From Clostridiaceae bacterium (GTDB lineage Bacteria > Bacillota > Clostridia > CAYPLH01 > DUMO01), in NCBI GenBank assembly GCA_012839865.1, contig DUMO01000041.1, positions 1 through 64,000 of the forward strand: 64,000 nt of DNA. Reading direction: 5' to 3'. A program made the position numbers and the translations under genes. This document shows, one piece after another, positions 4,753 to 43,187 of the stretch. The notes beneath the pieces were generated by a model that made no database searches, was not told the DNA's origin, and saw nothing but the letters and a program-made list of their open reading frames with translations. The stretch's first letter is position 1. Each line of letters begins with the position of its first letter.

Positions 4753-6081
4753 TCAGCCATGTTTAAAGAAGTGCCATGTTCCGATATTGGCAGGATCTCC
4801 TTTGTCATCGGGCAGAAGATCCTTGTAGTTTTCACATACCTTACGGTATGCATACGCATATTCTTCAATAACTTCAGGAACAAATTTCTTAAACCACGGT
4901 ACTGAAAATATCATGGAACCTATTTTTTCGCTTACAGGCAAGTCCCGGTCAAATACTCTTATGTCATCTTTTGAATTTGCCAGTCTTGTAGGCTTGCCAT
5001 GTCCGTAGATATCACATGTATTGAAAACCGGGTGGGTATGGAGTGGATTGTTGCAGCCTGCTATGCAGTTTGCGACCCCCTCTGCCCTCACAGCTTCTGT
5101 AAACCGGGTAATCGAAAGCCCTCCAAGCTCATTCTTATTGTACAACGCATATGGTAAATACCAACCGGCCATATTGCTTCCTGAGCCTTCCAGTACCCTA
5201 TGGGGTTTGATTGCAGACATACTTTCCAATTGCTTCCAGAAATAATCCATGGCTTTTCTAATCTCGGCACACCTTTCATCATAATACTTAAGCTGGACTC
5301 TCCCAACTGCGGAGCTGAGCTGATGCATACGGTACTTGTAACCCCCCAGGGGCAGTCCTATATATTTTCTCAATTCCTTATTCTGAATCCTGTCATCAAA
5401 TCTTTCATAATGGCCAAATGCAATTGCTCTTTCATATATGTCCCTGTCATTTGTAACCAGTATGCCGCCTTCGCCTATGGCAAAAGATTTTCCGCTCATA
5501 AGGGACATGGCTGCAACGTCGCCAAAAGTACCGAGTTTTTTTCCTTTATACAGCCCCCCCTGGGCATGGGAAACGTCTTCTATCACTTTCAGGTTGTGTT
5601 TTTTGGCAATAGCCAATATGCGGTCCATATCAGCAGGATATGAAAGATAATGTACAACCATGATAGCTTTCGTATTTTTAGTAATTCTTTTTTCAATGCT
5701 GTCAGGATCAATGCACAGTGTTTCAGGGTCAATATCCGCAAAAACAACCGTACCGCCCAGTGAAAACACCTGTGCTACGGATGCCCAATAAGTTATACTT
5801 GGACAAATTATCTCATCGCCTATTCCGATTCCGCATCCAAACATTGCTGCATGAAGTGCGGAAGTTCCGTTGTTGAAAGCCAATGCATACTTAGTTCCCT
5901 GCCATGCAGCAAACTCTTTTTCAAATTCGACCGTAACATCGGTTCCTGACATGGCACACCTGTCTAATACATCCAGTACAGCCTTTTTATCTTCTTCTGT
6001 TATTATTGGCCACTTGAATATCTCGTTGTGACTTTGTTTTATTGTTTTTTCTCCTCCAAGTATTGCAAGCTTATTTGACAT
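4753..6081 (-). CDS. DegT/DnrJ/EryC1/StrS-family PLP aminotransferase
   Basis: This is a sugar-type aminotransferase (442 residues) that usually moves an amino group from glutamate or glutamine to a keto-sugar or keto-cyclitol. The fold-I elements are in order: the NNGTSALHAA phosphate loop near residue 70, the EDVSHAQG aspartate near 169, and the PLP lysine at about 198 in SGKSFAIGEGG. The start is the ATG at 6081, preceded by GGAGGG; the longer frame has no ribosome site. It is the last gene of the catabolic operon, 71 bp after the LarA-like gene. In this context it may work in the catabolic direction, removing nitrogen from an amino sugar or cyclitol, but that is inference. Confidence 0.88.
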   Translation of the reverse strand: MSNKLAILGGEKTIKQSHNEIFKWPIITEEDKKAVLDVLDRCAMSGTDVTVEFEKEFAAWQGTKYALAFNNGTSALHAAMFGCGIGIGDEIICPSITYWASVAQVFSLGGTVVFADIDPETLCIDPDSIEKRITKNTKAIMVVHYLSYPADMDRILAIAKKHNLKVIEDVSHAQGGLYKGKKLGTFGDVAAMSLMSGKSFAIGEGGILVTNDRDIYERAIAFGHYERFDDRIQNKELRKYIGLPLGGYKYRMHQLSSAVGRVQLKYYDERCAEIRKAMDYFWKQLESMSAIKPHRVLEGSGSNMAGWYLPYALYNKNELGGLSITRFTEAVRAEGVANCIAGCNNPLHTHPVFNTCDIYGHGKPTRLANSKDDIRVFDRDLPVSEKIGSMIFSVPWFKKFVPEVIEEYAYAYRKVCENYKDLLPDDKGDPANIGTWHFFKHG

Positions 6082-6152
6082 AAAATACCCTCCATTAAAT
6101 ATTTTATTCATAACCGCATTATGCCAGGTACATGCCATAATCTTTTATCATA

Positions 6153-7445
6153 TTAATTTTTTAATTTAACCACAAACTCGGTAAAATAGAAACTTGGAAA
6201 GGCATAAATTCTTGCATTTTTTCCGTGTCGCGCCAGAGCCATATCGACTGCCTCCTGAGGAGAATCAGCATATTCCATACCAAGTTTTGCTGCCTCTTCA
6301 CGATTTATTCCTTCACTTACAAGAATCGTTCGAATTCCCTTTGCCCACTTTTCTGCGCCGTGGCAAAGATGCCCTGCAGCAGTCAAGTCCGTTATTTCGC
6401 CGCGTTCCACCATGCCTTTTACTTCATCCAAAGGTCTGTACCCGTATTTTATGATATCGGGATGCTCGTCACATATGCCGTCTTCACATCTGGCAAACAG
6501 TACAACAGTACCCCCTTCCTTCATAATTAGCTCGCTCCAGTTAGGCCCTGTTGCATTGCCCCACATATTAGTCTGGCCGCTGGAAGCCCCGACAATGAAT
6601 ATGTCTGCCTTTTCTTCAATTTCAAGGGTAAAATACGGGCTGGCAGCTTCACAGCATGCCCGGTGGGCATCAATAAAATGGCCTGCAAATGCTTTAGAAA
6701 GCCTGTATTGCCTGTCCAGCACACAGTTAACAATAAAATCAAGGCCCACCTGTTCCGCAATCTGCTCCATTTCGCGACGTACAACATTATTATTATGCCC
6801 GAGGATTTCTGATACAGGGTATTGTGCAGCAAGCCAATGGGTATATCCGGTGGTTCTGAATCCTGAGACTCCCGGTTGTATCATCTTGGCGCCTCCGGAC
6901 CACCCGGCATCTCTGTGGGGCTTTACTGCTCCGACAGCAATTTTGACATCTGTTTCAAGAACATGCCTGTTTATATCAATCGGGGTCCCATTTGGTGTGG
7001 TTCCGACATGTACGAGTTGATTTTCATCCCACCACTCATGGTTGTAAATCCTGTTTTTGAATCTTTCATATAATACTGAACCGAAGTGATGCTCCATCTC
7101 TTCTTCCGTCATGGCCCTGTGCGTACCTGAACCGATTAAAAATTTAATATTCTCTTCCTTAATACCTCCTGCAAGAATTTCATCTATAACGGGAGGTATG
7201 ACAAAATCTAGCGGAAATTTTCTTGTCCTGTCCGGAACCATGATAAGGACTGTATTTTTCCCCCTTACAATCTCACTAAGCCTATCGGTGCCAATTGGTT
7301 TTAAAAGGGCTCTTCTAACCTCTGCGTCAGGGTTGGAGGCGGCGCAGGCATCACCAACCTCAATTATTTTAATCAGCGACTCCTCCGGAATCTGAACCGA
7401 TACACTTTTGTAGCCATACGAAAACTCTACCGCAACATTTGCCAT
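6153..7445 (-). CDS. LarA-like nickel-pincer hydroxyacid racemase/epimerase (DUF2088)
   Basis: Homologues racemise or epimerise 2-hydroxyacids by hydride transfer to a nickel-pincer nucleotide cofactor. The key residues are present with numbering close to lactate racemase: D72 and R75 in PDRTRKFP, H109 in GSGTHRAMTE, H177 in PHRDAGWSGG, K187 (covalent cofactor lysine) in GGAKMIQPGVSG and H203 in YTHWL. At 430 residues it has full family length. The ATG at 7445 is preceded by AAAGGAG; the longer frame is not needed. The maturation genes larB, larC and larE are not in this window. The substrate is probably a sugar-derived hydroxyacid rather than lactate, judged from neighbours. Confidence 0.87.
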   Translation of the reverse strand: MANVAVEFSYGYKSVSVQIPEESLIKIIEVGDACAASNPDAEVRRALLKPIGTDRLSEIVRGKNTVLIMVPDRTRKFPLDFVIPPVIDEILAGGIKEENIKFLIGSGTHRAMTEEEMEHHFGSVLYERFKNRIYNHEWWDENQLVHVGTTPNGTPIDINRHVLETDVKIAVGAVKPHRDAGWSGGAKMIQPGVSGFRTTGYTHWLAAQYPVSEILGHNNNVVRREMEQIAEQVGLDFIVNCVLDRQYRLSKAFAGHFIDAHRACCEAASPYFTLEIEEKADIFIVGASSGQTNMWGNATGPNWSELIMKEGGTVVLFARCEDGICDEHPDIIKYGYRPLDEVKGMVERGEITDLTAAGHLCHGAEKWAKGIRTILVSEGINREEAAKLGMEYADSPQEAVDMALARHGKNARIYAFPSFYFTEFVVKLKN

Positions 7446-7541
7446 TTTAATTTTCTCCTTTAATCCGTTATAACTTTTCTCTTGCAGAATTCTCTTTTTT
7501 TGAACCTTAAGACCATCAGCACAATGTCTAACCACTAAACA

Positions 7542-7591
7542 AAGCTATATTCCGTTTTGCCGGCATGAATCAACAAAACGGAATATAGCTT
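7542..7591 (-). terminator. Perfect 18-bp hairpin between dehydrogenase and LarA-like genes
   Basis: AAGCTATATTCCGTTTTG (7542-7559) is perfectly complementary to 7574-7591 with a 14-nt loop. On the minus strand it is followed by TGTTTAG, only weakly T-rich. It may be a partial terminator or an mRNA-stabilising structure that lowers or separates expression of the last two genes. Confidence 0.55.
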
Positions 7592-7604
7592 AAGACACAT
7601 TATT

Positions 7605-8630
7605 TTATAAAGGAAGGGATACAGGTTGGCCGGATTCAATCGAACGGTGAATTCCCTCAACAATTTCAGCTACCTTGCGTGCCTCTTTTCCGGATGTTAC
7701 AGGTTCCTTGTTATTCAAAAGGCAATCTACAAAATGTTCAAGACTTATCCTGAATGCACCCTGCAGCTTTCCGTTTACCCTGCATGAAATAGACAATTTG
7801 GGAAAAGTGTACACTTCAGGAGTTGCATACTCGAAGGACTCGCTCTTTCTGTCAAGATGCACCACTCCATGCTCTCCAACAATCTCAATATATGAATCAG
7901 TAGGAGTCGGGAAAGTATCCGGATATATCCAGCCTGATTCAAATGTTGCTATTGCACCGTTTTCAAATTCCACAAGAGCCTGAACAGCATCCAGAGTATC
8001 GTATCCTTTGCTTTTCAATACTTTGGCATATGCCCTGGCATATACTGATTTGGCTTCACAACCAATAAACCATCTTACAAGGTCAATGTCATGGCTTGAC
8101 AGAAATGCTGCAGGAGTCGATTCTGCAAGCCAGCCCCACGACTTTGTAATAACTCCTATAGTATCATTCTTCCTTGCATATGCCATTGCAACATTCCCTA
8201 TTTTTCCCGATTCTATCAAGCTTTTTGTATTAAAATATGATGCTGCCCATCTGTGAGAAAAGTTGACCATCAGAGTTTTGCCCTGTTTTTCGGCAAACTT
8301 TATCATTTCATCGCAATCCTCAAGCTTGGTTGCCAGCGGTTTTTCAACCAACACATGCTTTCCGGCCTGGAGAGCTGCAATTACAGGAGCTTTATGCATG
8401 CTGTCAGGTAAAGATATTGCAACGGCATCAATATCACATTTTGAAAGCATGGTTTCATAGTCTTTGAAACAGTCTGCCTTAACGCCGATTCGCTCACATA
8501 ATTTCTTTGCCTTGTCAACATCAAGATCTACAAGGGCACTTAATTCTGTCTCAGGCATGCCTGCAAAAATTTCTGCATGCTGTGAGCCCATGGTACCGAC
8601 TCCAATAACACCTATTCGTAATTTCTTCAT
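7605..8630 (-). CDS. Gfo/Idh/MocA-family NAD(P)-dependent dehydrogenase
   Basis: This is a sugar or cyclitol dehydrogenase-like enzyme of 341 residues. The N-terminal Rossmann fold starts with IGVIGVGTMGSQHAE, and the conserved EKPLA lysine motif lies near residue 97. The C-terminal half is the mixed beta-sheet substrate domain, with a HDIDLVRWF segment near residue 180. The start is the ATG at 8630 after GGAGG. It lies about 170 bp downstream of the permease genes on the same strand. Such enzymes oxidise a ring or chain hydroxyl to a keto group, which the DegT and LarA-like partners could act on or produce. The substrate is not predictable from sequence. Confidence 0.9.
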   Translation of the reverse strand: MKKLRIGVIGVGTMGSQHAEIFAGMPETELSALVDLDVDKAKKLCERIGVKADCFKDYETMLSKCDIDAVAISLPDSMHKAPVIAALQAGKHVLVEKPLATKLEDCDEMIKFAEKQGKTLMVNFSHRWAASYFNTKSLIESGKIGNVAMAYARKNDTIGVITKSWGWLAESTPAAFLSSHDIDLVRWFIGCEAKSVYARAYAKVLKSKGYDTLDAVQALVEFENGAIATFESGWIYPDTFPTPTDSYIEIVGEHGVVHLDRKSESFEYATPEVYTFPKLSISCRVNGKLQGAFRISLEHFVDCLLNNKEPVTSGKEARKVAEIVEGIHRSIESGQPVSLPL

Positions 8631-8801
8631 AGTAACCTCCATCCTTAATATAAAGATTATTTATAATAAATGTCCAAAAAAGCACGAACTGAAACTGACC
8701 TACACAATATACATTTGACAGACTAATAAACTGTATATTTTATAGGGAATTTTTACTATGCTTTTCCAGGCATTAAGCATCTTTCGCCAAAAACTTAAAA
8801 A

Positions 8802-9638
8802 TCAACCCTTAACTGCACCTTCAATAAGTCCTTTCAACAAGTAGTTCCTGAACACCAGCGTAATAATTACCGTTGGAAGCGCTGATAGTATGGCACTGGC
8901 AGCCGCCCCGCCATAATCTGTAAAGTAAATTCCTGAAAACGATGAGGCAAACACCGTCAAAGGTATGCTTTTTGACAGGGTTAAGGGCAGTGCAATCAAT
9001 AATTCGCCCCATACAAGTATAAAAGTTACAATTCCAGCAGATATCAGTCCTGGTCTCGACATGGGTAGAATTATTTCCAGGAAAATCTGAAATCTCTTGC
9101 ATCCATCTATTAAACCTGCTTCCTCCATTTCCCTGGGTATGCTTTTGAAAAAGCCTAAAAGCACCCACATGGATACAGGCAGCGTAAATACCAAAATAGC
9201 AATAATGAATCCGGCCAGGGTATCTATCAGGTTGAGGCTTCTCATGATAAGAAATATTGGTATCAGGAAGGCAACCGCCGGACCCATCTGTATGCTGTAA
9301 TTTGAAAACAAAATGAATGATTTTCCCTTAAAATTCAGCCTGGCAATTGCGTAAGCCCCCATACTGGCAAATGCAAGAGTCAATATAGTGGTGGTTAAGG
9401 ATACTATAATACTGTTTCTTAAGGATAACATAAACTTATCATTGTTCAAAAGCTTTCTATAATTTTCAAACCAGTTGGCAAATTCAATTTTAGGCGGTAT
9501 GCTTGTAAGATTAACCTGCGATTGAAAGCTTGTAAGGAGCATCCAAAAAAACGGTGCCATATAAAAAATAATAAAACAAAACACAAAAAAGTAAGTGAAA
9601 AATATCGCAAGATTTCTTTTAAGTCTGTTTGTCTTCAT
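8802..9638 (-). CDS. Carbohydrate-type ABC transporter permease (MalG-like)
   Basis: This inner-membrane permease of a CUT1-type sugar importer has 278 residues and six predicted membrane helices. The EAA loop that docks with the ATPase is near residue 175 (EEAGLIDGCKRFQIFLEIILP). The start at 9638 follows AGGGAGATAATA. It is 24 bp downstream of the MalF-like permease. No ATPase gene is in the locus, as is common for clostridial CUT1 systems that share a MsmK-type ATPase encoded elsewhere. Confidence 0.92.
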   Translation of the reverse strand: MKTNRLKRNLAIFFTYFFVFCFIIFYMAPFFWMLLTSFQSQVNLTSIPPKIEFANWFENYRKLLNNDKFMLSLRNSIIVSLTTTILTLAFASMGAYAIARLNFKGKSFILFSNYSIQMGPAVAFLIPIFLIMRSLNLIDTLAGFIIAILVFTLPVSMWVLLGFFKSIPREMEEAGLIDGCKRFQIFLEIILPMSRPGLISAGIVTFILVWGELLIALPLTLSKSIPLTVFASSFSGIYFTDYGGAAASAILSALPTVIITLVFRNYLLKGLIEGAVKG

Positions 9639-9662
9639 TATTATCTCCCTTTATAGTAAAGA

Positions 9663-10559
9663 TTAAGTGTTGTCACGGTTAAAGGTCTTATAATACAGCA
9701 GTATCATAAGCAGAATTATAACAGTGAAAATATACCCCAATGCTGATCCATAACTCATGTTTAAATAATTGAAGGCCTGTTGGTATATATACATATAGGT
9801 TATCATTGTATTGGTACCCGGACCGCCGCCTGTCATGATAAATATGGTGTCAAATGTCTTGAGTCCCCATGTCGTAAGCAGAATCAATACCGACATCAAA
9901 ACAATTTTTATACCCGGCAATGTAACATAGAAAAACCTTTGTGCTGCATTTGCCCCGTCAAGTTCAGCCGCTTCATATAAAGAAACAGAAATATTCTGAA
10001 AGCCGGTAAAACAAAGCAATCCTGCGAATGGAGCATTACGCCATATTTCAACAATTGCAGCCATTGCCAAAGCTTTCCATGTCGATTCCATAAACCACCA
10101 CTTGTATGAATTTATCAAACCAAATTGCTTGAGCAAAAAGTTGAGAATTCCATAGTTGCCATCAAATATCCACTTCCACATCAAACCGCCAACCACACGG
10201 GGAACAGCCCATGGAAGCAAGCTCAGCAAAAGAAAAAATTCTTTTCTTTTTATGTACTTGCTGTTTAATAATGAAGCAAACAAAAGTCCGAATACTGTAC
10301 TGCCTGTAACAATTAAAAGAACAAAGAATCCTGTTTTCGGAAGGCTCTGTAAAAATATTTGATCACTGAAAGCCTTGACATAGTTGCCAAACCCTATTAC
10401 CTTGGGTTTTGCCGCAATATTCAGCCTCCAGTTTAAAAAACTTACATAGAAGGAATAAAGAATTGGAAACAAGCCCATCAATAAAAATACGGAAAACATG
10501 GGGCCTACCATTTTATAAGCAAAAAGAGATTCTTGCAAAGCTTGACTTTTCCTTTTCAT
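9663..10559 (-). CDS. Carbohydrate-type ABC transporter permease (MalF-like)
   Basis: This is the second permease of the importer: 298 residues with six helices and an EAA motif near residue 205 (YEAAELDGANAAQRFFYVTLP). The ATG at 10559 (MKRKSQAL) follows AAAGGATTCAAC and is preferred over the longer frame. It lies between the solute-binding protein gene, from which it is separated by a stable hairpin, and the MalG-like permease. Confidence 0.92.
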   Translation of the reverse strand: MKRKSQALQESLFAYKMVGPMFSVFLLMGLFPILYSFYVSFLNWRLNIAAKPKVIGFGNYVKAFSDQIFLQSLPKTGFFVLLIVTGSTVFGLLFASLLNSKYIKRKEFFLLLSLLPWAVPRVVGGLMWKWIFDGNYGILNFLLKQFGLINSYKWWFMESTWKALAMAAIVEIWRNAPFAGLLCFTGFQNISVSLYEAAELDGANAAQRFFYVTLPGIKIVLMSVLILLTTWGLKTFDTIFIMTGGGPGTNTMITYMYIYQQAFNYLNMSYGSALGYIFTVIILLMILLYYKTFNRDNT

Positions 10560-10578
10560 GTTGAATCCTTTCTTATCA

Positions 10579-10604
10579 GGGGATATCTTCAACAAGATAT
10601 CCCC
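10579..10604 (-). promoter_or_regulatory. Stem-loop between binding-protein and permease genes
   Basis: GGGGATATCTT (10579-10589) pairs with AAGATATCCCC (10594-10604) around a 4-nt loop. No T-run follows on the minus strand, so it is more likely an RNA-stabilising or processing hairpin. Such hairpins often protect the upstream binding-protein message so that it is made in excess over the permeases. Confidence 0.6.
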
Positions 10605-10639
10605 TTTTTAATATCATCAAATTTTACAAAAACCAGCTT

Positions 10640-11929
10640 TTATTTGTATTGGGAAATTATGTCCTTAACCTTTGCTGCTGCATCATCCAAAGCCTGTTTT
10701 GCTGTCTTCTTGCCCTGCACTGCAAGTAAAAGCTCAGGTCCCAAAGTGTCCTGAAGTTCTGTTGTGTATGGAGCTGCAAATCTCATGGTAGGATACTTGG
10801 ATTGTTCAGCAGCGTACTGGAACAAAGGACTGCTGGCCAATACTTCCTGGTCCTCAAACAATGAGTTTACTACAGGATACCATCCGGTTTTCAGAACCAT
10901 CTTCTTTTGGACATCGTTGGATGAAAGGAATTTGATAAGATCAAGTGCTGCTTCTTTGTTCTGGGAATACTTGGATATCGAATGTCCTTCGGATCCTGTA
11001 ATAGCACCGGTGGTCTTTATAGAAGGAACCCTGGTTACAACGCAATGTCCTGCAAAAGCAGACTGTGCCGGATCGTTTGCCATTACATAAGTTGCTGCCC
11101 ATTCCCAGGTCATTGCATTAAGACCTTTATTCCATCTTTCCCTCTTGTCAGTTCCAAATACGATACCATATGATGCCGGGTCTATAACTCCCAAATTAAC
11201 CAATTCCACGATTTTTTCAAGGGCTTCCACACCTTCAGGTTCGTTGAACTTGATATTGTCATTGCTGTCAACTATTTGACCTCCGGTAAGCACCAGCACA
11301 TCCTGGAAAGATATTAACAGGTTGTTGTTGTTACCCATTCCAAATAGTAAACCGTATTCGTCCTTATCCTTGTTTGTCGTGGCTTTTGCGTATTCAACCA
11401 TTTCATCCCATGTTTCCGGAAGCTTTGTAATTCCTGCTTTTTGCAATGCCAGCTCATTGCAGTAAAATCCTCTTATGCTGAAGAACTTGGGCAAGCCATA
11501 TCTTCTTCCTTTATAAGTGACGCAGTTTAATGCACCCGGTACATACTTATCCCATTCATCTTTTGTAAGTTTGTCCGTAAGATCTTCAAGATGCCCGGCA
11601 TTACCAAATTCTGCAGTCCAGCCGACCCAGGTCCAGAGTACGTCAACTTCTGCAGATTTTGCTGCAAAAATTGTTGTGAGCTGTGTATGCAGGTTATCCA
11701 TGGCAATTTCCGTAAAGTCGACATCAATGCCTGTTGCTTTCTCAAAATCCGGAATGTATGGTGATATAATCATATTGTCTCCTGATCCATCCGGTGCAGA
11801 AAGCACAACAAGCTTGGTGGTCTTTGGAGTCTGAGTGCCTCCGCCATCTCCTGATGGTGTATTCAATACACAGCCAACCAAAGATAAAGAAAGAAGTGCT
11901 ACCAAAATGATGCAAAGCAGTTTTTTCAT
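10640..11929 (-). CDS. Extracellular solute-binding lipoprotein of a sugar-type ABC importer
   Basis: This 429-residue family 1 binding protein captures the substrate outside the cell and delivers it to the two permeases. A lipoprotein signal peptide ends in the lipobox LVGC at about residue 20, followed by a Gly/Thr-rich linker. Typical MalE-like segments follow, such as YGLPKFFSIRGFYCNELALQ near residue 145. The start at 11929 is preceded by GGGAGGATAAGTAC. It is the first structural gene of the operon, with a 400-bp upstream region that carries the shared 42-bp element. The ligand is unknown. Confidence 0.93.
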   Translation of the reverse strand: MKKLLCIILVALLSLSLVGCVLNTPSGDGGGTQTPKTTKLVVLSAPDGSGDNMIISPYIPDFEKATGIDVDFTEIAMDNLHTQLTTIFAAKSAEVDVLWTWVGWTAEFGNAGHLEDLTDKLTKDEWDKYVPGALNCVTYKGRRYGLPKFFSIRGFYCNELALQKAGITKLPETWDEMVEYAKATTNKDKDEYGLLFGMGNNNNLLISFQDVLVLTGGQIVDSNDNIKFNEPEGVEALEKIVELVNLGVIDPASYGIVFGTDKRERWNKGLNAMTWEWAATYVMANDPAQSAFAGHCVVTRVPSIKTTGAITGSEGHSISKYSQNKEAALDLIKFLSSNDVQKKMVLKTGWYPVVNSLFEDQEVLASSPLFQYAAEQSKYPTMRFAAPYTTELQDTLGPELLLAVQGKKTAKQALDDAAAKVKDIISQYK

Positions 11930-12334
11930 GTACTTATCCTCCCTTATTGAAATTTTTTACCTCTTAAAAATAGAGATCTATAATCTACCGTTAGCACGGT
12001 AAATTTTTTATTAATTCGATTCAAAATTGTTTTTAACAAGGATAAGCCTTTGCAAATATGTTAATAGGCTGCCAACTGTCTTATTCTCTTATATTTCAAC
12101 CGTATGGTTCAACATATGGATAATCATCTTTGCATCATCAAATATTTCTGTTTAACTGTTCAAGTTGGTTCTAAAGATAAGTCTAAAATATTGTTAGTCT
12201 AAAACTGCATCTATGTAAAATAAATCTTGCGAATTTTCTATTTACATCATATTCATTTTATAATCTTTTCCATGCAATTTCTTTGCAAATATTTTATTAT
12301 TCTTGATTGATATTACATTTTAATGTTGTCCATT
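11930..12334 (-). promoter_or_regulatory. Promoter region of the ABC importer operon
   Basis: This 405-bp AT-rich stretch holds no gene. It contains the 42-bp element at 12279-12320 and, closer to the binding-protein gene, a small inverted repeat TACCGT-TAGC-ACGGTA (11986-12001) that could be an operator. I could not place a single clear -35/-10 pair, as expected for an AraC-dependent promoter. Confidence 0.5.
12279..12320 (-). promoter_or_regulatory. Copy A of a shared 42-bp regulatory element
   Basis: On the minus strand this begins AAATGTAATATCAATCAA, then 16 AT-rich bases, then GCAAAGAA. The same arrangement and spacing occur at 16317-16358 (37 of 42 bases identical). It lies 350 bp upstream of the solute-binding protein gene and 14 bp past the AraC stop. 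A binding site for the AraC-type regulator encoded alongside is the simplest reading. Confidence 0.6.
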
Positions 12335-13258
12335 TCACCCGCCAAGTTTCCTGTAAGCTGTTGGAGACAGTCCTGTATGTTGTTTAAACAGCCGGTTGAA
12401 ATGGCTTATGTTTTTGAAACCTGATTCATAGCAAATATCAAGTATCTTTTTGTGTGATTGCTTAAGAAGTTCCATGGATTTTGAGATTCGAAGCCCGTTC
12501 AGATATTCCACAAAGGTTTTGCCGGTTACATTCTTGAAAAAATAACAGAAATATGATTTTGACAGCATTGCCTTTGACGCAATAAAGTCTATCGAAAAAT
12601 CCTCTGTATAATTTTCATTGATATATTGTATTGCTTTCATGATTGAGCCTCTGTGGCTGTCATAAAGTAAGCTGTCCTGATTTGTTTCAATGCTTTTTGA
12701 AAATTCCCTGCCAACAATTACGAGCAGATTAAGAAGAAGTGCTCTTATTATTAAATCGAATCCAACCATTCTGTTTTTATATTCATGCAATACATTGTTT
12801 AAAATTCTTTCCACTTCAATCTGTATCTCGCCTGCCAGGTTCAACCTTGGTTTAACCTGACTCTCACTGACCAGAAAGGGTTCTATGTAAGCAAAATCGA
12901 AAAATGACCTTATATTTTCTATACTGTTGAAGTTTTGATTTATAAATTCCGGTTCAAACTCAAATTCGATAATCTCTATGTCTACATCGTCAACAGGCAT
13001 GATTTGATGAGGAATATATGGCGGTATGATGAAAATGTCTCCTTTGACTATATCGAATGAATGGTTGTTTATAACATGTCTGCCCCTGCCCTGGCATATG
13101 TAATTTGTCTGCACATAATTGTGTCTGTGCAACTCAGGTGTTATTGTGTTTCTGTTGTATTTCCTTATGTAAAACAGCAGTCCCCCGTTATTGTTATCCT
13201 TCATGGTTAATAGAGGTATCTTTTTGAATCGCACATCATCGAAATTGCTAAAATCCAT
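12335..13258 (-). CDS. AraC-family transcriptional regulator
   Basis: This soluble regulator of 307 residues has an N-terminal cupin-like ligand domain (about residues 25-110, with TPELHRHNYVQ) and two C-terminal helix-turn-helix motifs (about residues 205-305), ending GFKNISHFNRLFKQHTGLSP. It lies in the same orientation as, and between, the importer operon and the amidohydrolase genes. It is the obvious candidate to sense the imported compound or a product and to act on the shared elements. Its own upstream region has a TATAAT (minus strand, 13338-13343) but only a weak -35. Confidence 0.93.
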   Translation of the reverse strand: MDFSNFDDVRFKKIPLLTMKDNNNGGLLFYIRKYNRNTITPELHRHNYVQTNYICQGRGRHVINNHSFDIVKGDIFIIPPYIPHQIMPVDDVDIEIIEFEFEPEFINQNFNSIENIRSFFDFAYIEPFLVSESQVKPRLNLAGEIQIEVERILNNVLHEYKNRMVGFDLIIRALLLNLLVIVGREFSKSIETNQDSLLYDSHRGSIMKAIQYINENYTEDFSIDFIASKAMLSKSYFCYFFKNVTGKTFVEYLNGLRISKSMELLKQSHKKILDICYESGFKNISHFNRLFKQHTGLSPTAYRKLGG

Positions 13259-13642
13259 TAAGTAAACACCCTTTCAATTGTGAAGAACAGAATTTTGTGT
13301 TCCAATTGCAAGTTTATTGCCGGTGTTATGCAATTACATTATATAATAGTCTGCACAAAATTTAAAGTAAATTTCTGCCTTATTGTTAATAAAGCCTTAT
13401 TTAAGTTTCCTGGCCGTAGTATATCTGATTTCATTTATTTCCATATGAACTTTAGCATGATGCCACTTTCAAAATATATAATTAAAAATTGCAAAAAAAT
13501 GTCTTCCCGGGGGATATAAAATTCAATAAACGAATTTATATTACGGAAAGACTGGGCAGTTTTAGTATACTATTTTTGTGAAATCTCTGTTTTATTACAT
13601 ATATAAGAGGCTTTTCAGTGATTAAATGTTTTACAATCATGT
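13259..13642 (-). other. Intergenic region upstream of the AraC gene
   Basis: This 384-bp AT-rich region separates the amidohydrolase genes from the AraC gene. A possible -10 (TATAAT, minus strand, 13338-13343) lies 80 bp before the AraC start. I see no gene, no copy of the 42-bp element and no strong terminator. Confidence 0.4.
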
Positions 13643-14434
13643 TTATCTGTTTTCCAAAATTCTTTTTATATTAAGCCCCAGAATATCTTTTTTCTCATCA
13701 TCCGAAAGACGGGCTAATGCTACTCTTCCGAAGGCCGCTCTCGGATCAAAAAAGGGCATGTCGGAACCGTACAAAAGTTTCCTGGACCCGACTTGGCTTA
13801 CAAACCATTCGACATTTCCTTCCCGAACCATTGAAACCGTTAAATCTGCGTAAACATTCACGTTGCTGTTTACTACATTTATAGTCTCTTCCATTGCCCT
13901 TACATCGCCGCCGGAGTGGCCTGCTATAAACCTTATTTCCGGGTATTTTTCAGCCAGTTTTCCAATAATCCGGATGTCTCCTATACCCCATGTGTGTATT
14001 AGAACCGGAAAACGCATTTCGTTGGCAAATTCATATGCAATATGGTAATTCTTATAGTCTATGGGGACCTGATGACATTCCGGATGAAGCTTGATACCCC
14101 TCATGCCGGGTACTTTCAGGCATCTTTCAATCTCATTTAACATATCTTTCGGGTAATGAGGATTTAGGGTTATATAGCCGATAAAGCGGTCAGGATATTT
14201 GGTTACGGCATCAATTATCATATTATTGCCATAAATGTAGTCCGGGCCTATTGATGCATGGGCGGCAACAAAAGCCATGTTTATTCCGATGGCGTCCATG
14301 CTCTCAAGCATTCCCTCCGCTGTATTGTTGGGAGCATTAAACTGGTAGTAAAAACCCATATGACAGTGGCTGTCAATTATAAGAGTATCATCAAGGGTCT
14401 GACCCATCCTTACCCTGTTGAACATACTATTCAT
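13643..14434 (-). CDS. Amidohydrolase family 2 (TIM-barrel) metal-dependent hydrolase/decarboxylase
   Basis: This 263-residue protein keeps the family's metal-binding marks: DSHCHMG near residue 21 (HxH), KLHPECH near 137, GHSGGD near 193 and YGSDMP near 236. Relatives hydrolyse C-N or C-O bonds or decarboxylate small acids. The start at 14434 follows GGGGGTGTAAAGT and overlaps the end of the upstream partner by 8 bp, so the two are translationally coupled. Context with an amidase and a sugar-type importer suggests processing of an amide-containing metabolite; the exact reaction is unknown. Confidence 0.87.
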   Translation of the reverse strand: MNSMFNRVRMGQTLDDTLIIDSHCHMGFYYQFNAPNNTAEGMLESMDAIGINMAFVAAHASIGPDYIYGNNMIIDAVTKYPDRFIGYITLNPHYPKDMLNEIERCLKVPGMRGIKLHPECHQVPIDYKNYHIAYEFANEMRFPVLIHTWGIGDIRIIGKLAEKYPEIRFIAGHSGGDVRAMEETINVVNSNVNVYADLTVSMVREGNVEWFVSQVGSRKLLYGSDMPFFDPRAAFGRVALARLSDDEKKDILGLNIKRILENR

Positions 14435-15182
14435 ACTTTACACCCCCAAGCAGCTTTTCAAGATTACCATATGCAATCATCCGTTTTTCTTCATCGCTTA
14501 TCCTGGCAAAATTAATCATTGTTATAGCAGAGGCCAGGGAACTTACCGGGGTTCCGCTTCCAAATATGAAACGCCCTGCACCAAACTTTTTGCAAATTTC
14601 CTCTATTCCATGATGCTGTTTATATCCGTAGGTCTCAATGCATAAGTTATCAAATTTTTGCAATAATGGATAAAGATTTCTGTCAGCTCTGTAGTTTAAA
14701 TCCGTTAAAACAATATTCAGTTTCGGAAAGCCGGTGCAAAGTTCATAAATTTCATTCCAGGTTAACTGGTCCAATCCAACAAACAGAGGGATTCCACTTT
14801 TTTCAAGCATTGAAAAAAGCTCCCCGCAGACCCAGTTTGATATGCTGTAAAAATGGTCTTTTATTGAGGGGAATATCTTCACAGCTTTGACATTATTCTG
14901 CCTAAGTTGCTTCAAAAGCTCATCAGGTTCCGGAAATTCTCCCGTATGGTGGGGCATTACAACCCACATTGGATACAGGCAGGGGTACTTGCTTATATCC
15001 TCCATAAGCATTCTGTTTCCTATGCATGGATTGTATTCTTTAGCAATTGAGTGATAAACCAGAGCTTTTTTTATACCAAAGTGATTCATATTTTCCACTA
15101 ACTCTTCCACTGTCCAATATGAACCGGGATTTACCACACTTCTTCTTCCAAAAAAGCAGCTTGAATCAAAGAACTCCAGCAT
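14427..15182 (-). CDS. Degenerate amidohydrolase-fold protein, partner of the downstream hydrolase
   Basis: At 251 residues this has the layout of amidohydrolase family 2, including a C-terminal RFIFGSGTPVSS and NFARISDEEKRMI that mirror the downstream gene. The N-terminal HxH metal motif is replaced by FDSSCFFGR, and the KLHPE-like histidine is replaced by KIFPSIKDH. It may be a non-catalytic subunit or an enzyme with a changed metal site. The start at 15182 follows AGAAGGTGATTAT. It overlaps the active paralogue by 8 bp, which argues for a complex. Confidence 0.75.
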   Translation of the reverse strand: MLEFFDSSCFFGRRSVVNPGSYWTVEELVENMNHFGIKKALVYHSIAKEYNPCIGNRMLMEDISKYPCLYPMWVVMPHHTGEFPEPDELLKQLRQNNVKAVKIFPSIKDHFYSISNWVCGELFSMLEKSGIPLFVGLDQLTWNEIYELCTGFPKLNIVLTDLNYRADRNLYPLLQKFDNLCIETYGYKQHHGIEEICKKFGAGRFIFGSGTPVSSLASAITMINFARISDEEKRMIAYGNLEKLLGGVKYE

Positions 15183-15311
15183 ATAATCACCTTCTGTTAA
15201 ATTTGAATATCCTGAAAAGCTACATTATGCGCAAACATGATTTTGATGGTTTTAATTTTAGAGTAAAATCCAGTATAAATCTTCTTATATCATACAAAAT
15301 AATTGATTTTT

Positions 15312-16208
15312 TTAACAAATCAAATATTTTTTCGGCATTTTGCAAATATATGTTCTTGTAGGATTGACAAATTGAGTGCAACGGGCTTCCATAACCTGAC
15401 TCATTAATAAAAAAGCCTCTTCATAAGTGAATCCGTAGCTGTCCACCATCCAGCACAGAATTTCCCTTGCCGCATGATAAAAGGATTCCTCCACAGTACC
15501 CAAGCATGCAACCGCCATGATATAGTCATTGTCCTCGATCCTTACGCAGTTCATTCTTACCGGTTTATCAACGACATCAACCACAAGTCTTATGGTAGCC
15601 CTGCATTCTATTCCACCCCCATTGCTTATCTCCCCGTCACCCTGTATTGCGTGAACATCTCCCACATGAAGGAGTGCTCCCGGAACTGACACGGGCAAAT
15701 AGACTGTGCTGCCGGCAGCAACTTCGTTGGCGTCCATGTTTCCTCCATGGAATCCACCGCGTGAATTTGACAGCACTTCAGATTCGGGCGCGGTTCCAAT
15801 TGTTCCTATCATAGGTTTTACAGGCAGTTTTAATTTTTCACTCCAATGTATGTACCCATCCTTGATTTCAACAGTTTTGGTTGTAAGGCCCCATTGCCTG
15901 GGATAGATGTATGTCGCCAAAGGGTTGAAGCTGATATCAAATCCGGTGAATCCAATATTATTCACCTGAATGTCTAATATTTTGACAGCCAGAATACTTC
16001 CGGGGTTTGCCCCCTTGATTTCCACACATACACATGGATTGCATCCTCGAATTTTTGAAAGATCAAATCTGTCTTCATTTGATTTTAACCAATCCCCTGA
16101 GCACAGTTCTGTTTCAATAATGAATTCTTCCTTTGGTTCAACAACCAATCCTGGTTTGTTAAACCTGCTGTGTTCATTGTAGACAACATCCCTTCGGGCT
16201 ATTTTCAT
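15312..16208 (-). CDS. Acetamidase/formamidase family protein (FmdA/AmdA)
   Basis: This 298-residue amidase-like enzyme belongs to a family that hydrolyses short amides to acid and ammonia. Family marks are CVCVEIKGANPGSILAVKILD near residue 60, and VGDVHAIQGDGEISNGGGIE near 190 (the usual GDxHAxQGDGE signature). The start at 16208 follows AGGAAAGGATTGAAGCAAT. It is the first gene of the second unit, about 110 bp downstream of copy B of the shared element and 129 bp ahead of the amidohydrolase pair. Confidence 0.9.
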   Translation of the reverse strand: MKIARRDVVYNEHSRFNKPGLVVEPKEEFIIETELCSGDWLKSNEDRFDLSKIRGCNPCVCVEIKGANPGSILAVKILDIQVNNIGFTGFDISFNPLATYIYPRQWGLTTKTVEIKDGYIHWSEKLKLPVKPMIGTIGTAPESEVLSNSRGGFHGGNMDANEVAAGSTVYLPVSVPGALLHVGDVHAIQGDGEISNGGGIECRATIRLVVDVVDKPVRMNCVRIEDNDYIMAVACLGTVEESFYHAAREILCWMVDSYGFTYEEAFLLMSQVMEARCTQFVNPTRTYICKMPKKYLIC

Positions 16209-16316
16209 ATTGCTTCAATCCTTTCCTGTTTTTTTGCAAATGTGTACTGTTGATTGAGACATGTGAAAAGCTTGTTCGATATTCTGTACATAATTTTACA
16301 TTATTATCAGGATTAA

Positions 16317-16358
16317 TTCTTTGCGGATTTTTTATTAATATTGATTGATATTACATTT
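16317..16358 (-). promoter_or_regulatory. Copy B of the shared 42-bp regulatory element
   Basis: This is identical in arrangement to copy A at 12279-12320: an 18-base block AAATGTAATATCAATCAA, a 16-base AT-rich spacer and GCAAAGAA (minus strand). It lies 109 bp upstream of the formamidase gene and abuts the deoB terminator. The pairing with copy A implies co-regulation of the two transcription units. Confidence 0.6.
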
Positions 16359-16360
16359 AA

Positions 16361-16400
16361 AAGAACTCCTTTCCGGAATATATTCCGAAAAGGAGTTCTT
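16361..16400 (-). terminator. Terminator of the xerD-deoB unit
   Basis: AAGAACTCCTTTCCGGAA pairs with TTCCGAAAAGGAGTTCTT around TATA with two mismatches. On the minus strand it is followed by TTTTAAAT. It lies about 60 bp after deoB. Confidence 0.8.
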
Positions 16401-41837: not shown

Positions 41838-43187
41838 TCATATTTGTGTTTTTATCCAAATTGCACATTCCAGCCTTTTTTTCTCCATTTCACAGCCTAT
41901 TCTGTAAGGGACGTTGATATCTTCGTTGAACTGGTATGAATTTGCCGCACATCCCCCGCTGCAGTAGAACTTCGCCCAGCACTTTTGACATTCCGGTCTG
42001 GAGTATACGTTGGATTTCTTGAAAGTATCAGATATAATTTCATTTATCGACCCATCCATGATATTTCCCATTTTAAATTCGGGCTTGCCTACAAACTGAT
42101 GGCAGGGGTAAATATCCCCCTCCGGAGTTATGGCAAGATACTCATGGCCTGAGCCGCATCCGCTTATACGCTTTATAACACAGGGTCCCTGGCTTAAATC
42201 AATCATAAAATGAAAGAAATTGAAAAACTGCCCGGACTTTCTTCTGTTCACATACTCAAAAGCAAGCTTTTCATACTCGGAGAGAACTTTTTCAAGGTCT
42301 TCCTCCCGTATGTCGTATCCTGTATCTTTTGCTGCCACAACGGGCTCAATTGATATTTGATCAAAACCTTCATCGGCAAGGTGAAAAACATCCTCTGAAA
42401 AATCAAGGTTGTTTCTGGTGAAGGTTCCCCGTACATAATAATTCTGCCCATTCCTTGATTTTACAATATCCTTTATGCGAGGAAGGATTCTGTCATAACA
42501 GCCTGACCCGTCGCAAAAAACACGCATCCTGTCATTTATCTCCCTGCGGCCGTCAATGCTTAAAACAATATTATAAAAATGCTTGTTTATAAACTCCATA
42601 TCCTCTTTTTTCATCAAGGTTCCGTTGGTTGTTATGGTAAACCGGAAAACTTTACCCGCACTCTTTTCCCTTTCCCTGGCATACAGTACTATTTTTCGCA
42701 CCGTATCAAAATTGAGCATGGGCTCTCCACCAAAAAAATCCACCTCCAAGTTTCTCCTGTTGCCGGATTTTTCAATTAGAAAGTCAATTGCCTTAATGCC
42801 AACCTCTTCGGGCATCATGGTTCTTGCGCCGCCAAAATTTCCGGTGGAGGCAAAGCAGTATTTGCACCTTAAATTGCAGTCATGGGAAATATGAAGGCAC
42901 AATGCCTTGACGACAGGCTCTCTTTTCAGATTGGCGACATAGTCTTCATAAATATCCTCTGAAAACAAAAGACCTTCTTCCACCAGAGTATTCAACTCCT
43001 CCAGGGCTTCCAAAACTTCTTTTTCCTCATACTTTCCGGTAAACTTTCCGATAATTTCTTCTTTGCTTGCCTTACCCAAATAGTCAAGGAGTTCATATGC
43101 AAGGTTGTCCAGCACATGCACCGCCCCACTGTTGACATCTGCAACTATATTTGTCCCAAACATCGAGAATTTGTGTATCACACACAT
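41838..43187 (-). CDS. scfB: SCIFF-peptide radical SAM maturase (CteB-like)
   Basis: This enzyme forms a thioether crosslink in the six-cysteine SCIFF peptide. The N-terminal ~90 residues are the peptide-binding domain (HKFSMFGTNIVADVNSG). The radical SAM motif CNLRCKYCF is near residue 105, followed by VDFFGGEPMLNFDTV. The C-terminal SPASM region is Cys-rich, with CGSGHEYLAITPEGDIYPCH and RPECQKCWAKFYCSGGCAAN, binding two auxiliary clusters. It lies 330 bp after the peptide gene and upstream of secD. The start follows AGAGAGGCTGA. Confidence 0.97.
   Translation of the reverse strand: MCVIHKFSMFGTNIVADVNSGAVHVLDNLAYELLDYLGKASKEEIIGKFTGKYEEKEVLEALEELNTLVEEGLLFSEDIYEDYVANLKREPVVKALCLHISHDCNLRCKYCFASTGNFGGARTMMPEEVGIKAIDFLIEKSGNRRNLEVDFFGGEPMLNFDTVRKIVLYAREREKSAGKVFRFTITTNGTLMKKEDMEFINKHFYNIVLSIDGRREINDRMRVFCDGSGCYDRILPRIKDIVKSRNGQNYYVRGTFTRNNLDFSEDVFHLADEGFDQISIEPVVAAKDTGYDIREEDLEKVLSEYEKLAFEYVNRRKSGQFFNFFHFMIDLSQGPCVIKRISGCGSGHEYLAITPEGDIYPCHQFVGKPEFKMGNIMDGSINEIISDTFKKSNVYSRPECQKCWAKFYCSGGCAANSYQFNEDINVPYRIGCEMEKKRLECAIWIKTQI

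Follow-up and report, generated by a model that had tools for sequence, protein, structure and literature searches.

We examined a 64,000-nt stretch of DNA (the window; positions 1-64,000 of the forward strand of contig DUMO01000041.1, assembly GCA_012839865.1) from a Clostridiaceae bacterium, in which positions 4753-16208 hold a set of ten genes, all on the minus strand, that includes a LarA-like protein and two PF04909 proteins, here called AmhA and AmhB. Read in the direction of transcription, the first unit consists of an acetamidase/formamidase-family protein (FmdA; 15312-16208), which matches FmdA_AmdA at family level only, followed by AmhB (14427-15182), a PF04909 pseudoenzyme, and AmhA (13643-14434), a PF04909 metal-dependent hydrolase-fold enzyme whose gene overlaps that of AmhB by 8 bp. 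Next comes an AraC-family transcription regulator with a cupin-type ligand domain (12335-13258, family match), which was missing from the gene list of an earlier note on this DNA. The second unit comprises a CUT1-type solute-binding lipoprotein (SBP; 10640-11929, SBP_bac_1), the CUT1-type ABC permeases PermF (9663-10595, MalF/UgpA-like) and PermG (8802-9638, MalG-like; both family matches), a Gfo/Idh/MocA oxidoreductase that keeps its EKP lysine and HD motif (7605-8642), the LarA-like protein (6153-7445) and a DegT/DnrJ/EryC1/StrS-type aminotransferase (4753-6138; PF01041 match), in which the pyridoxal phosphate (PLP) lysine is kept (SGKSFAIGEGG). Our leading reading, held with moderate confidence, is that these genes form one AraC-controlled catabolic regulon for a sugar-like amino compound, in which LarA possibly acts on a non-carboxylate alcohol. 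It builds on the gene content, residue states, conservation, co-directional units and a shared upstream element described below.

The families named in the earlier note (LarA, DegT, Gfo/Idh, CUT1, the PF04909 pair and FmdA_AmdA) are all present at family level. Its statement that the combination belongs to no described pathway was borne out: in a scan with NCBIfam models, no protein of the set reached a curated NCBI equivalog cut-off, so that at this level no named pathway is encoded, and literature searches for this gene combination gave nothing relevant.

The open frame of LarA opens at GTG 7535, and an AAAGGAG ribosome site precedes ATG 7445. As judged from the sequence, ATG 7445 rather than GTG 7535 is most likely the start, and the residue numbers of the earlier note agree with it. 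That note held all LarA active-site positions to be kept. In its numbering, D72, R75, H109, H177, K187 and H203 are indeed present, equivalent to D72, R75, H108, H174, K184 and H200 of Lactobacillus plantarum LarA (the numbering used from here on), which serve as ligands of the nickel-pincer nucleotide (NPN) and of nickel and as acid/base residues. The claim fails, however, at the equivalents of Q295 and K298, which are replaced by Gly and Thr. Gln295 and Lys298 contact the substrate carboxylate in the lactate-bound structure (PMC11851776); K298 has been given as a catalytic residue, and its loss in some uncharacterised LarA groups has already been noted (PMC7583248).

Among 49 aligned homologues, Q295 and K298 are both lost only in the window LarA and in two LarAs of the distant Bacillota genome G660, which carry Ala/Ala and Asn/Cys at these positions; one of the two is absent from a few remote homologues of hexonate or single-histidine type. 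In a tree of LarA homologues, these three sequences from two genomes form one clade (support 1.0), within which the NPN and catalytic residues have survived at 44% identity. No LarA in a phylum sample of 398 genomes came closer than the two G660 copies, at 44% identity. Relatives in the class sample reach at most 37% identity and are without DegT or amidohydrolase neighbours, the order-level sample held just the source genome, and peptide patterns of the window LarA retrieved no relatives from the genome collection. Gln and Lys are retained by the close homologues that fall outside the clade, which reach 42% identity. These homologues lie in clusters of sugar-acid-like appearance with TRAP importers and with FGGY-type kinases and dehydratases, the last two named by reading sequences; gene neighbours in relatives were generally taken from mechanically called open frames, several of them named by reading rather than by library search.

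Since the Gln/Lys pair that helps hold the carboxylate is gone, the substrate of the window LarA is probably not a simple 2-hydroxy acid, and the contrast with the sister LarAs in sugar-acid-like clusters suggests that the clade as a whole acts on something other than a plain 2-hydroxy acid. A rather doubtful alternative keeps the same regulon and has LarA still racemising or epimerising a sugar acid or other 2-hydroxy acid via Arg175 and other residues. The protein retains R75, H108 and H174 and has Arg at position 175, its sister clade is found in sugar-acid-like clusters, and Gfo/Idh enzymes and amidohydrolases can also suit uronate chemistry. The best family matches of the window LarA are likewise the malate and lactate racemase models, at 306.8 and 250.6 bits, below their cut-offs of 500 and 460 bits; the protein thus falls short of malate racemase LarAH6 (NF052593). 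This alternative has to contend with the clade-wide loss of both carboxylate-contacting residues, which every other close homologue keeps, and with an importer of the CUT1 sugar type, not of the TRAP type.

The two PF04909 proteins had been described as an amidohydrolase pair, which is correct as to family, but the 14427-15182 protein (AmhB) has lost every family metal ligand. In AmhA the full set (HxH, H, H, D) is present at this locus and nearly always across the aligned loci, and in none of these loci does AmhB have it. The AmhB-AmhA pairing was seen in about 30 loci, side by side and often overlapping, and the two are fused in haloarchaea and some Bacillota; these fusions predict physical contact. 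The structure model of AmhB is a TIM barrel (predicted local distance difference test score, pLDDT, of 92), and its nearest solved folds in a structure comparison are amidohydrolase-2 decarboxylases. One match is an ACMSD entry whose title describes arginines, one of them from the neighbouring subunit, as essential for catalysis, which offers a model in which AmhB, by analogy, may lend residues or shape to its partner AmhA. Among solved structures, those closest to AmhA are decarboxylases, hydratases and uncharacterised hydrolases. As the first two kinds predominate, amide hydrolysis by AmhA is not established, and the proposal that the pair hydrolyses amides is not supported as put, one member being a pseudoenzyme. 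AmhA-AmhB is a conserved enzyme-pseudoenzyme partnership of bacteria and haloarchaea, of which we found no description; the few literature searches on amidohydrolase pseudoenzymes gave nothing relevant.

The same genome carries a second AmhA-AmhB pair (locus L065, G000:C1, 8053-16948), together with a Gfo/Idh-like protein, an M55 D-aminopeptidase-family protein and a CUT1-like importer. Elsewhere, AmhB-AmhA lies beside large heparinase II/III-like proteins (L005 and L068 by Pfam, L069 and L070 by sequence clustering), and two haloarchaeal plasmids (L016, L018) carry two-domain AmhB/AmhA-type fusions with sulfatase, DegT, class III aminotransferase or RidA genes nearby.

The two transcription units share an upstream element. 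Copies of an 80-bp direct repeat, 73% identical and in the same orientation on the minus strand, lie in front of the SBP operon (12255-12334) and of the FmdA-AmhB-AmhA unit (16293-16372), and the 29-nt core of the repeat is matched exactly twice in the window and never in 100 shuffled sequences. With the repeat before both units and the AraC gene between them, a single regulon is the simplest reading, and the repeat is the presumed binding site of the AraC regulator. Between the Gfo/Idh and LarA genes lies a hairpin with a perfect 20-21 bp stem (7543-7590, minus strand), the sole such perfect-stem hairpin in the window, which may act as an attenuator or terminator and lower transcription of LarA and DegT. 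No RNA families were found in the region, and scans of it for promoter-like and terminator-like signals stayed at chance level.

Comparison of loci across genomes resolves the set into modules: a transporter-Gfo-LarA block and the AmhA-AmhB pair, with DegT recurrent and FmdA local. An operon on contig C93 of G660 encodes SBP (47% identity), PermF (49%), PermG, LarA (44%) and Gfo (52%), with LarA and Gfo in swapped order relative to the window. A ceramidase-like gene precedes this operon, and about 4 kb beyond it come a TRAP-like importer and two amidohydrolase-2-like genes. The second G660 LarA, on contig C138, lies with NagA-like, ROK-like and SIS genes, AmhB, AmhA, a POT-type importer and two Gfo/Idh genes. 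On a Bacteroidetes contig, AmhB and AmhA come immediately after a Gfo orthologue (46%), with heparinase II/III-like and ceramidase-like genes near, and in seven loci a DegT-family gene adjoins AmhAB (L066, L067, L079, L080, L081, L085, L089). The co-occurrence in relatives on which the earlier note let its case depend is therefore partial: transporter/Gfo/LarA, Gfo-AmhBA and DegT-AmhAB recur, but the full set is not found together elsewhere. That the grouping exceeds chance is indicated by the operon recurring in another genome and by the repeat core being found in 0 of 100 shuffles.

These comparisons bear on a second alternative, which we regard as unlikely, namely that the region is a chance patchwork of unrelated carbohydrate genes whose only functional units are AmhA-AmhB and transporter-Gfo-LarA. 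DegT and FmdA were indeed not found in the G660 loci, and the AmhA-AmhB pair occurs in many different neighbourhoods; the 80-bp repeat common to both units, the recurrent DegT-AmhAB adjacency and the Gfo orthologue adjoining AmhBA in Bacteroidetes argue the other way.

Turning to the remaining enzymes, the Gfo/Idh protein scores 173.5 bits against a cut-off of 355 bits for myo-inositol dehydrogenase IolG (TIGR04380), and an inositol pathway was ruled out, as the set also has no IolE or IolD gene. The DegT protein has orthologues in three distant Bacillota genomes, at 67-69% identity, and on two haloarchaeal plasmids, at 56-57%, with M55 peptidases, amidohydrolases, ceramidase-like or Gfo/Idh genes close by. 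A second, 68% identical DegT copy of the same genome (L104, G000:C32, 13-1350) stands alone beside chromate-transporter-like genes. The 15312-16208 protein, called a formamidase and counted as a core gene in the earlier note, keeps the family assignment but reaches only 70 bits of the 500 required for formamidase FmdA (NF045496). FmdA was not seen in any of the related loci, and a formamidase step was dropped as a core feature. Import by a sugar-type system was supported, with SBP_bac_1 and two MalF/MalG-type permeases defining a CUT1 importer, and the MsmK-type ATPase that had been named as a gene to look for has a counterpart in a MalK/MsmK-type ATPase elsewhere in the genome (G000:C44; OB_MalK 58.9 bits, cut-off 27). 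Far from the set, at 41838-43187 of the window, lies a radical SAM protein that, judged by eye, resembles a SCIFF-peptide maturase.

The supply of nickel-pincer cofactor is less secure. The genome (2.74 Mb in 89 contigs, completeness 99.98%) carries three LarA homologues, among them one canonical lactate racemase (614 bits) and one of hexonate type (667 bits). In profile searches of the assembly, LarC had no match, LarB just a PurE-like match below cut-off and LarE weak matches alone, so the larBCE genes that the earlier note had proposed to look for were not found. The canonical larA (L062, G000:C51, 8221-9492), which lies near a CUT1 importer and an MlrC-like gene, terminates 184 bases from the end of its contig, and linked lar genes could therefore be missing from the assembly. 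Of seven further LarA-positive genomes in the class, four (G021, G055, G082 and G137) likewise have no detectable LarC, for which cofactor scavenging or an absent pathway variant are possible explanations. The nickel-pincer chemistry that the earlier note expected agrees with the kept cofactor-site residues; with larB, larC and larE not found in the assembly, such chemistry in the window LarA is plausible but not assured. A still less likely proposal, that LarA is cofactor-free here and serves as a substrate binder or regulator or is decaying because the genome cannot make NPN, fits the lack of LarB, LarC and LarE above cut-off in a nearly complete genome and the LarC-less genomes of the class, but sits poorly with NPN and catalytic residues intact across the clade, with a canonical LarA so near a contig end that lar genes may be unassembled, and with possible cofactor uptake.

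In the regulon that we favour, a sugar-sized solute would enter through the CUT1 permeases, with the MalK-type ATPase encoded elsewhere providing the energy. The Gfo/Idh enzyme would use NAD(P) to interconvert a hydroxyl and a ketone, and DegT would move an amino group between the substrate and glutamate. The LarA-like protein, if cofactor is available, would invert a carbinol centre via hydride transfer to the nickel-pincer cofactor, and AmhA, helped by the catalytically dead AmhB, would carry out a hydrolysis, decarboxylation or lyase step. We infer the order of these steps, the cofactor loading of LarA and the substrate class, an amino sugar, amino cyclitol or uronic-type sugar. Elsewhere the modules neighbour NagA-like, NagB-like, heparinase II/III-like, ceramidase-like, M55 and M20 genes, which may point to glycans of amino sugars or uronic acids as the broader class of substrate. 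Of the earlier proposal, breakdown of an amide-bearing amino sugar, cyclitol or hydroxyacid, the catabolic set with sugar-type import is supported and the amide hydrolysis by the PF04909 pair, as put there, is not.

Several observations weigh against the favoured regulon and its LarA. Arg75 and Arg175 are both present and could still allow a carboxylate to be bound in another way; the replacements at Q295 and K298 differ in all three clade members. The transporter-Gfo-LarA operon is found in just one other genome, DegT and FmdA were not found in the G660 loci, and conservation does not extend to the ten genes as a whole. LarA-DegT could be cut off from the rest of the operon by the hairpin at 7543-7590, and with larB, larC and larE not in the assembly the cofactor supply is unproven.

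Set beside known systems, the window LarA shares with the LarA superfamily (LarA, malate racemase Mar2/LarAH6 and LarAIp; PMC7583248, PMC11851776, PMC11770544) the fold family, the NPN-tethering Lys, the Ni-binding His, both catalytic His, Arg75 and Asp72; it differs in its replaced Gln295 and Lys298, in falling below all NCBIfam equivalog cut-offs and in its operon with a CUT1 importer and a Gfo/Idh enzyme. The single-histidine subfamily LarA(Sp)/LarA(Bw) also has a non-canonical active site, a location near sugar ABC importers and a proposed carbohydrate role, but it carries Asn for H174 and Lys for R75 (PMC12611868), both of which the window LarA keeps while losing Q295 and K298. AmhA resembles the PF04909 amidohydrolase-2 enzymes (ACMSD, dihydroxybenzoate decarboxylases, 4-oxalomesaconate hydratase) in its TIM barrel and its HxH, H, H, D ligands; unlike them, it is encoded beside, or fused to, a ligand-less paralogue. 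The 3-keto-glycoside and inositol pathways (DgpA, IolG) likewise place a Gfo/Idh enzyme near a sugar importer, but the window Gfo falls below the IolG cut-off and the set has no IolE-, IolD- or DgpBC-type genes. Rhizopine (moc) catabolism, compared by description only, combines sugar-type import with a Gfo/Idh enzyme for an amino-cyclitol, and LarA, AmhAB and DegT are not part of it.

More tentatively, the window and G660 LarAs may constitute a nickel-pincer subfamily whose substrate is a neutral sugar, cyclitol or hydroxy-amide, inverted or isomerised at an alcohol carbon, instead of a 2-hydroxy acid, within an undescribed pathway that also uses a two-subunit amidohydrolase of one active and one dead paralogue. 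For the family more broadly, the LarA-positive genomes in which no larC was detected prompt one to ask where the cofactor comes from. Every known LarA substrate has a carboxylate, and the conserved residues that bind it include Gln295 and Lys298 (PMC11851776). A clade without these two residues but with the cofactor site retained, beside a sugar importer and a Gfo/Idh enzyme, offers a concrete test of whether nickel-pincer chemistry extends past 2-hydroxy acids.

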